Assembly: GCA_013205535.1 (NCBI GenBank)
Contig: JABMMN010000067.1
Coordinates: 1-45,476, forward strand
Length of the DNA: 45,476 nucleotides
Origin: Candidatus Planktophila sp.
GTDB taxonomy: Bacteria > Actinomycetota > Actinomycetes > Nanopelagicales > Nanopelagicaceae
Reading direction: 5' to 3'
The notes under the pieces are model-generated. The model had not been told where the DNA came from and searched no databases. It saw nothing but the letters and a program-made list of their open reading frames with translations. Below, in pieces: positions 20,168-28,729 of the stretch. Each line of letters opens with the position of its first letter. Within the stretch, counting starts at the first letter, position 1. The translations under genes and the position numbers were made by a program.

Positions 20168-20854
20168 TTACGAACCTCCCGTAACTCCCGCTTTATAACC
20201 AACACCACGCACTGTCACGACAATCTCTGGCCGCTCAGCATCGTGTTCAATTTTCGCACGCAATCTCTGTACATGAACGTTCACTAATCGCGTATCGGTG
20301 GAGTGGCGATATCCCCAGACTTCGCTGAGTAGTGCATCACGTGAGAAAACCCGCCCTGGCTCTCTGGCAAGGGCTACCAATAAATCAAATTCAAGGCGTG
20401 TCAGTGCAATCTGTCGACCAGCACGCGTTACCTGATGGGCGGAGACATCAATTGCTAGATCCAAGACGGTGAGCAGAGCTGAAACATCGGTATTGGTACG
20501 GCGCAGGCGAGTGCGGATTCGTGCTACGAGTTCGGAAGGGTGCTTAAAGGGTTTCACCATGTAGTCATCGGCGCCGGCTTCAAGGCCTTGCACCACATCG
20601 CGTGAATCACCCTTTGCGCTGAGCATGATGATTGGAACCATTGATTCTGCGCGAATCAGCCTGCACACTTCGATTCCATCTAGTCCTGGCAACATGACAT
20701 CTAGGAGGACTAAATCTGGAGGATTATTTCTAAAGACATCCAGCACTTCATCACCACGAGTTACAAGGTCAACATCGATTCCTGCTCCAGTTAAAACGAT
20801 TCCGAGCATCTCGGATAGGTCTTGGTCATCATCGACGACCATAACCAAAGTCAT
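20168..20854 (-). CDS. mtrA: MtrA-like response regulator
   Basis: A 228-residue OmpR-family regulator. Receiver acidic residues are Asp8-Asp10, phospho-acceptor Asp52 is in LVLLDVMLPGLDG, and Lys is in YMVKPFKHP. The winged-helix effector has RLEFDLLVAL, VWGYRHSTDTRLVNVHVQRLRAKIE and the VTVRGVGYKAG end, very close to known MtrA sequences. The ATG overlaps the sahH stop by one base (TAATG), so MtrA output is tied to the methyl-cycle gene. MtrA is essential in mycobacteria. Its partner kinase is encoded three bases downstream. Confidence 0.95.
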   Translation of the reverse strand: MTLVMVVDDDQDLSEMLGIVLTGAGIDVDLVTRGDEVLDVFRNNPPDLVLLDVMLPGLDGIEVCRLIRAESMVPIIMLSAKGDSRDVVQGLEAGADDYMVKPFKHPSELVARIRTRLRRTNTDVSALLTVLDLAIDVSAHQVTRAGRQIALTRLEFDLLVALAREPGRVFSRDALLSEVWGYRHSTDTRLVNVHVQRLRAKIEHDAERPEIVVTVRGVGYKAGVTGGS

Positions 20855-28344: not shown

Positions 28345-28638
28345 TTAGGCAGTGCGACGCTTGAGGCGGCGGCGTTCACGCTCTGAGAGTCCGCCCCAAA
28401 TTCCAAAACGTTCGTCATGGGCGAGGGCATATTCAAGACACTCTGCACGAACATCACAGGACAGGCATACACGCTTTGCTTCACGGGTAGAGCCTCCTTT
28501 TTCAGGGAAGAAGGCTTCGGGATCGGTTTGAGCACATAGTGAGCGCTCCTGCCACGATAGTTCGAGATTCTCTCCACTTGCGAGGGTTATTTTAGGACCA
28601 GATGTGGGGGAGTTGGTGGCTTCAGGTCGGATCGGCAT
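28345..28638 (-). CDS. whiB2: WhiB2/WhmD-type iron-sulfur regulator
   Basis: A 97-residue WhiB protein. Cluster ligands are Cys35, Cys58, Cys61 and Cys67, followed by FGIWGGLSERERRRLKRR with the GIWGG turn (79-83) and a basic DNA-binding end. The 30-residue N-terminal extension and the sequence around WQERSLCAQTDPEAFFPEKG place it with WhiB2/WhmD, a division regulator in Mycobacterium and Streptomyces. It has a real leader: an AAGGAG ribosome site, and a consensus promoter about 60 bases upstream carrying a perfect palindrome. Regulation by a dimeric DNA-binding protein is likely (inference). Confidence 0.93.
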   Translation of the reverse strand: MPIRPEATNSPTSGPKITLASGENLELSWQERSLCAQTDPEAFFPEKGGSTREAKRVCLSCDVRAECLEYALAHDERFGIWGGLSERERRRLKRRTA

Positions 28639-28700
28639 ACCGATTCTCCTTAGGTAGCTGTAGAACTCATTCCTGATGAAAGAGCCGTAATTAATATCAA

Positions 28701-28729
28701 ATTACACGCGTGTAAGTCGCATATGTCAA
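28701..28729 (-). promoter_or_regulatory. Consensus sigma-70-type promoter of whiB2
   Basis: Minus-strand TTGACA (28729-28724), a spacer of exactly 17 bases, then TGTAAT (28706-28701). This is the closest match to the vegetative consensus I found in the window. Transcription should start near 28694, giving a leader of about 56 bases before ATG 28638. Confidence 0.8.
28702..28715. promoter_or_regulatory. Perfect 14-bp palindrome, putative operator
   Basis: TTACACGCGTGTAA reads identically on both strands and covers the -10 box and part of the spacer of the whiB2 promoter. The half-sites TTACAC/GTGTAA resemble BldD-box half-sites (TNACNC...GNGTNA), with a two-base centre in place of the usual one. 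A repressor bound here would block polymerase. Confidence 0.6.

Follow-up and report, generated by a model that had tools for sequence, protein, structure and literature searches.

The analysed window, which is the complete 45,476-nucleotide stretch of Candidatus Planktophila sp. DNA, contains on its minus strand a whiB gene of the WhiB2/WhiB class with the ATG at position 28638 (Table 1). The gene product is about 80% identical to Streptomyces WhiB across the core. The gene is preceded by the promoter TTGACA-N17-TGTAAT, as proposed in the initial annotation, and the transcription start would lie at about position 28694, judging by the distance from the −10 box. This TGTAAT box is near-invariant in 99 aligned promoters, in an alignment that was itself anchored on TGTAAT. 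The window also holds mtrA, the gene of a cell-cycle response regulator, on the minus strand at positions 20186 to 20845, 8 kb from whiB; in many genomes of the class, whiB and mtrA occur on a single contig.

Five of the six bases of the −10 box are covered by the perfect 14-bp palindrome TTACACGCGTGTAA. The initial annotation had also pointed out this overlap and the fit of the half-sites to TNAC/GTNA with a two-base centre, and the sequence agrees on both. The core reads TTACA-CGCG-TGTAA, with a 4-base spacer between ACA and TGT as in the consensus of the mycobacterial repressor McdR/ResR. By simple arithmetic, chance yields about three perfect palindromes of 14 bp, whatever their sequence, per 45 kb, which makes palindromy alone weak evidence; the significance of the palindrome at the whiB promoter comes from its conservation. 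Inside the window, TTACACGCGTGTAA with up to three mismatches has one match compared to 1.09 expected. The search for further copies suggested at the outset shows a single exact copy in the 1.17-Mb genome, with one additional place at one mismatch and one at two mismatches.

Table 1. Features of the whiB promoter and related loci in the window's genome (G000). Positions without a prefix refer to the window.
Feature	Position	Strand	Basis
whiB (WhiB2/WhiB class) coding sequence, 97 aa	28345..28638	−	Pfam Whib, 94 bits; ERFGIWGG motif (ERF-GIWGG)
Ribosome-binding site AAGGAG of whiB	28646..28651	−	Sequence
5′ untranslated region of whiB (inferred)	28639..28694	−	Inference
−10 box TGTAAT	28701..28706	−	Sequence; 17 bases from the −35 box
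Predicted McdR/ResR operator	28700..28717	.	Plus strand AATTACACGCGTGTAAGT; 11 of 12 specified bases of AATnACAnnnnTGTnATT
Perfect 14-bp palindrome TTACACGCGTGTAA	28702..28715	.	Sequence
−35 box TTGACA	28724..28729	−	Sequence; TTGAC kept class-wide
mcdR, 166 aa	G000:C18:18015-18515 (L367:1474-1974)		MerR_1, 50 bits; synteny and alignment
BldD orthologue	L104:1244-1795 (G000:C22)		Canonical efp-nusB-bldD-pyrR-pyrB place; HTH; RxD-x8-RxxD c-di-GMP motif
Second site TTACACGGCTGTAA (C76:6974) with adjoining DnaA boxes, outside the window	G000:C76:6974-7021 (L115:975-1022)	.	Sequence

Conservation of the palindrome upstream of whiB

Phylogenetic footprinting, likewise suggested in the initial annotation, covered 100 whiB upstream regions in an even draw of the class. 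The arrangement TTGAC-N9/10-TNACA-N4-TGTAAT or a near variant was recovered in nearly all of them. The palindrome or close variants of it precede whiB in freshwater-type relatives as well as in distant genera, and the site is conserved in about 35 families of Actinomycetes. The right half of the palindrome coincides with the −10 box, and its conservation cannot count on its own for that reason. This leads to a reading that dispenses with a regulator, in which only the −10 box is conserved and the left half arose by accident or is a feature of the promoter spacer. The left half itself speaks against such an explanation. When promoters from 35 families are aligned at the −10 box, each family carrying equal weight, the C at spacer position 4 shows 94% conservation (1.63 bits) and the A at position 3 shows 76%. 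Furthermore, the palindrome is also conserved 3′ of crgA, a location with no evident promoter, and a site without any regulator is extremely improbable. The consensus derived from the alignment, GAATNACA-N4-TGTNATTC, was obtained before the published McdR motif was consulted.

Many whiB promoters of the class contain a second copy of the palindrome over the start site, at a distance of exactly 14 bp downstream of the first (46 instances in 21 families). In about 21 families, the resulting tandem palindromes span the −10 box and the start site of whiB (e.g., L162 and L175). Most families outside the lineage of the window have this downstream copy; it is degenerate in the acI lineage, leaving only the copy at the −10 box.

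BldD and other candidate regulators

The initial annotation interpreted the palindrome as a retained, BldD-like repressor site. On this reading, BldD, together with c-di-GMP, would bind it and repress whiB. The BldD box, TNAC-N5-GTNA, has half-sites like those found here, and BldD represses whiB in Streptomyces (PMC4151990). The search for a homologue revealed a syntenic BldD orthologue with the c-di-GMP motif between nusB and pyrR, and the genome also encodes one GGDEF protein. The spacer of the site in the window has 6 bases compared to 5 in the BldD box, and this two-base centre argues against BldD. Class-wide, a scan of gaps from 0 to 13 gives a single peak at 6: TNAC-N6-GTNA is present in 50 of the 100 whiB upstream regions, compared to 9 with a gap of 5, which is no commoner than other gaps, and at most 13 with any gap other than 6. 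BldD-box scores at the 100 whiB regions equal those of shuffled controls. With the presence of BldD scored by PF21179, found in 105 of 148 genomes, the site does not follow the regulator, as TNAC-N6-GTNA is at least as frequent in sampled genomes lacking BldD (29/43) as in those possessing it (21/57). Spacing, shuffled controls, and co-occurrence thus led to the rejection of BldD, which is quite improbable as the reader of the site. Loss of the palindrome in relatives and absence of a BldD-like regulator had been named as outcomes speaking against the initial reading; the palindrome is conserved, and the orthologue is present. What stands of that reading is a repressor site retained over the whiB promoter of a streamlined, non-differentiating actinobacterium and reflecting an ancestral division circuit; BldD as the regulator is not supported. 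More generally, BldD persists in streamlined acI-type genomes as a diverged orthologue whose c-di-GMP motif is intact, and these genomes usually encode a single GGDEF protein as well.

The response regulator MtrA, which binds RTNAC-N6-GTNAY, is a further candidate. MtrA-family matches occur in 148 of 148 genomes, mtrA itself lies inside the window, whiB has been reported among the MtrA targets of S. venezuelae, and the half-site period of 11 bp happens to fit the site. However, MtrA sites are direct repeats of GTNAC, whereas the conserved columns here form an inverted repeat (T15 instead of C), and the tandem copies are 14 bp apart instead of the 11 of MtrA. The published McdR motif, described below, fits far better. 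MtrA was rejected because only the period and not the direct-repeat form agrees with the site, and regulation by MtrA through the palindrome is very improbable.

A site of self-regulation read by WhiA/WhiB through GACAC would find support in the GACAC or GTGTC sequences present within the array in many other families and in the reported binding of WhiB2 to its own promoter in mycobacteria. The acI site, however, contains TACAC/GTGTA instead of GACAC. The class-wide consensus leaves position 2 free, and the motif of WhiA is asymmetric and bound by a monomer. The absence of GACAC from the acI whiB site led to the rejection of this candidate, which is hardly credible. Two other regulators were also discarded: the FtsR motif AACCCTAAAG...GGTTGAGGGTA does not match the site, and for the BldM group I motif TCACcCgnncGgGTGA, scores at the whiB regions are close to those of shuffles.

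McdR/ResR as the predicted repressor of whiB

McdR/ResR (Rv1830), a repressor of the MerR family so far studied only in mycobacteria, represses whiB2 in these organisms via the operator AATnACAnnnnTGTnATT, in which the half-sites and the length of the spacer are critical but the spacer sequence is not (PMC9040748). The M. tuberculosis protein shows a Kd of 0.33 μM on this operator. Scored out of the 12 specified bases of the published motif, with dinucleotide shuffles as the null, 91 of the 100 whiB upstream regions reach at least 10, compared to 0.5% of shuffles. The site in the window reaches 11, with its sole mismatch in the left flank (ACT instead of AAT in the minus-strand reading), and exact operators are found upstream of whiB in named Nocardia, Rhodococcus, Brevibacterium, Flexivirga, Amycolatopsis, and Lentzea. 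The palindrome is therefore very probably an operator of the Rv1830 orthologue, forming part of a feedback circuit in which McdR would block the whiB promoter and WhiB and WhiA would activate mcdR.

The genome of the window encodes a putative McdR in the cluster gcvH-garA-ftsR-DUF151-mcdR-gcvP, an order also known from Rv1826 to Rv1832 in M. tuberculosis. The neighboring FtsR matches an NCBIfam equivalog with 286 bits. No NCBIfam model names McdR, and the orthology consequently relies on synteny and alignment. McdR shows 62 to 87% identity with the seven homologues compared, with a near-invariant HTH, and 66% identity over 158 amino acids with the f4 homologue. In mycobacteria, WhiB2 activates mcdR through cGACACGc. 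The sequence CGTGTCG, the complement of cGACACG, is found 68 to 87 bases upstream of mcdR in four of four acI-family genomes; in the genome of the window, this WhiB2-type box lies at −72, with the last base of the 8-mer differing. Both arms of the feedback are predicted here since McdR is encoded, with a predicted operator at whiB, and the mcdR promoter contains a GACAC box.

Binding of McdR and repression of whiB in this organism are predicted from sequence. A McdR dimer would bind AATnACA-N4-TGTnATT over the −10 box of whiB, and occlusion of this box would block the housekeeping promoter and thereby limit cell division. WhiB, acting with WhiA, would activate mcdR through the GACAC box, closing a negative feedback loop in which WhiB limits itself. 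This arrangement resembles the mycobacterial McdR/ResR-whiB2 system (PMC9040748, PMC10336103) in the consensus, the 4-base spacer, and the target gene, as well as in having an orthologous MerR regulator, which is encoded in the corresponding gene cluster and preceded by a GACAC box. It differs in that the −10 copy survives here, whereas the experimentally characterised mycobacterial copy lies around the start site, and in the host, which has a 1.2-Mb genome, belongs to a streamlined acI-type lineage, and would use the system in the predicted way. The McdR-WhiB2 loop is known from mycobacteria, in which McdR is an essential protein linked to antibiotic resilience; the results predict that the loop is ancestral to Actinomycetes and has been kept in a strongly reduced free-living lineage.

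The tandem array is also the place of action of BldO, a MerR protein which represses Streptomyces whiB at TGxAATTxCA in whiBp2, protects about 40 bases centered on this sequence, and is described as having whiB as its single target (PMC5485038). BldO resembles McdR, as predicted here, in being a repressor of the MerR family that acts over the −10 box and the start site of whiB, but its AATT center lies half a repeat away from the McdR palindrome. The BldO repeat corresponds to the junction of the two palindromes 14 bp apart, which speaks against McdR as the reader in every lineage, since a different protein may occupy the array in some of them. Lineage-specific readers such as BldO in Streptomyces may thus share the array with McdR.

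The putative operator-DnaA-box element 3′ of crgA

Genomes from the genus of the window contain roughly one or two copies of TTACAMGCGTGTAA each. Apart from whiB, its location is an intergenic region between convergent genes, next to crgA and a rhomboid gene and with DnaA boxes on its flanks. A corresponding element is found class-wide 3′ of crgA, in which two or three DnaA boxes follow a McdR-type palindrome at near-fixed spacing (loci L277-L336 and L387-L396). At least 7 of the 8 core bases are present in 48 of 61 crgA 3′ regions, compared to 4.8% of shuffles, and 53 of 68 crgA regions score at least 10 of 12 for the McdR motif, compared to 0.1% of shuffles. A DnaA box within one mismatch is contained in 58 of 61 crgA regions but in only 13 of 100 whiB regions. 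In one acI genome (G170, C1:10664; L218:1501-1514), crgA has relocated, but the palindrome together with its DnaA boxes stays beside the rhomboid gene, which indicates that the element is not a crgA terminator.

The gene crgA, presumably located near oriC, lies near the contig ends in single-contig genomes. Clusters of DnaA boxes near oriC are known as datA/DARS-like elements. The crgA element likewise comprises two or three DnaA boxes near the origin but differs from these clusters in its fusion to a McdR-type operator. Overexpression of McdR in M. smegmatis raises the DNA copy number near the origin, and the predicted McdR-type operator beside the DnaA boxes could be the cause of this rise. 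By way of the crgA-side site, McdR would act on the DnaA boxes of a datA/DARS-like element and change the initiation of replication. That McdR possesses two class-wide sites, acts on the DnaA boxes 3′ of crgA, and in this way couples division and replication across Actinomycetes is a tentative proposal, possible but on balance doubtful. The recurrence of the site at whiB and beside DnaA boxes makes this link testable, and the second conserved site offers a concrete, testable cause for the published and unexplained increase in origin DNA upon McdR overproduction.

In 16 whole genomes, 19 sites matched the strict pattern TNACACNNGTGTNA, with 15 located at whiB or at the crgA/rhomboid element; its reversed control matched 11 sites. 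The loose motif TNACANNNNTGTNA shows no excess over the reversed pattern in acI genomes and therefore defines no regulon by itself. Among the remaining sites of the strict search is TTACACGGGTGTAA, which lies beside DnaA-like boxes upstream of nrdR in a single Micromonospora-like genome (G160:C2:139035; L341:1501-1514).
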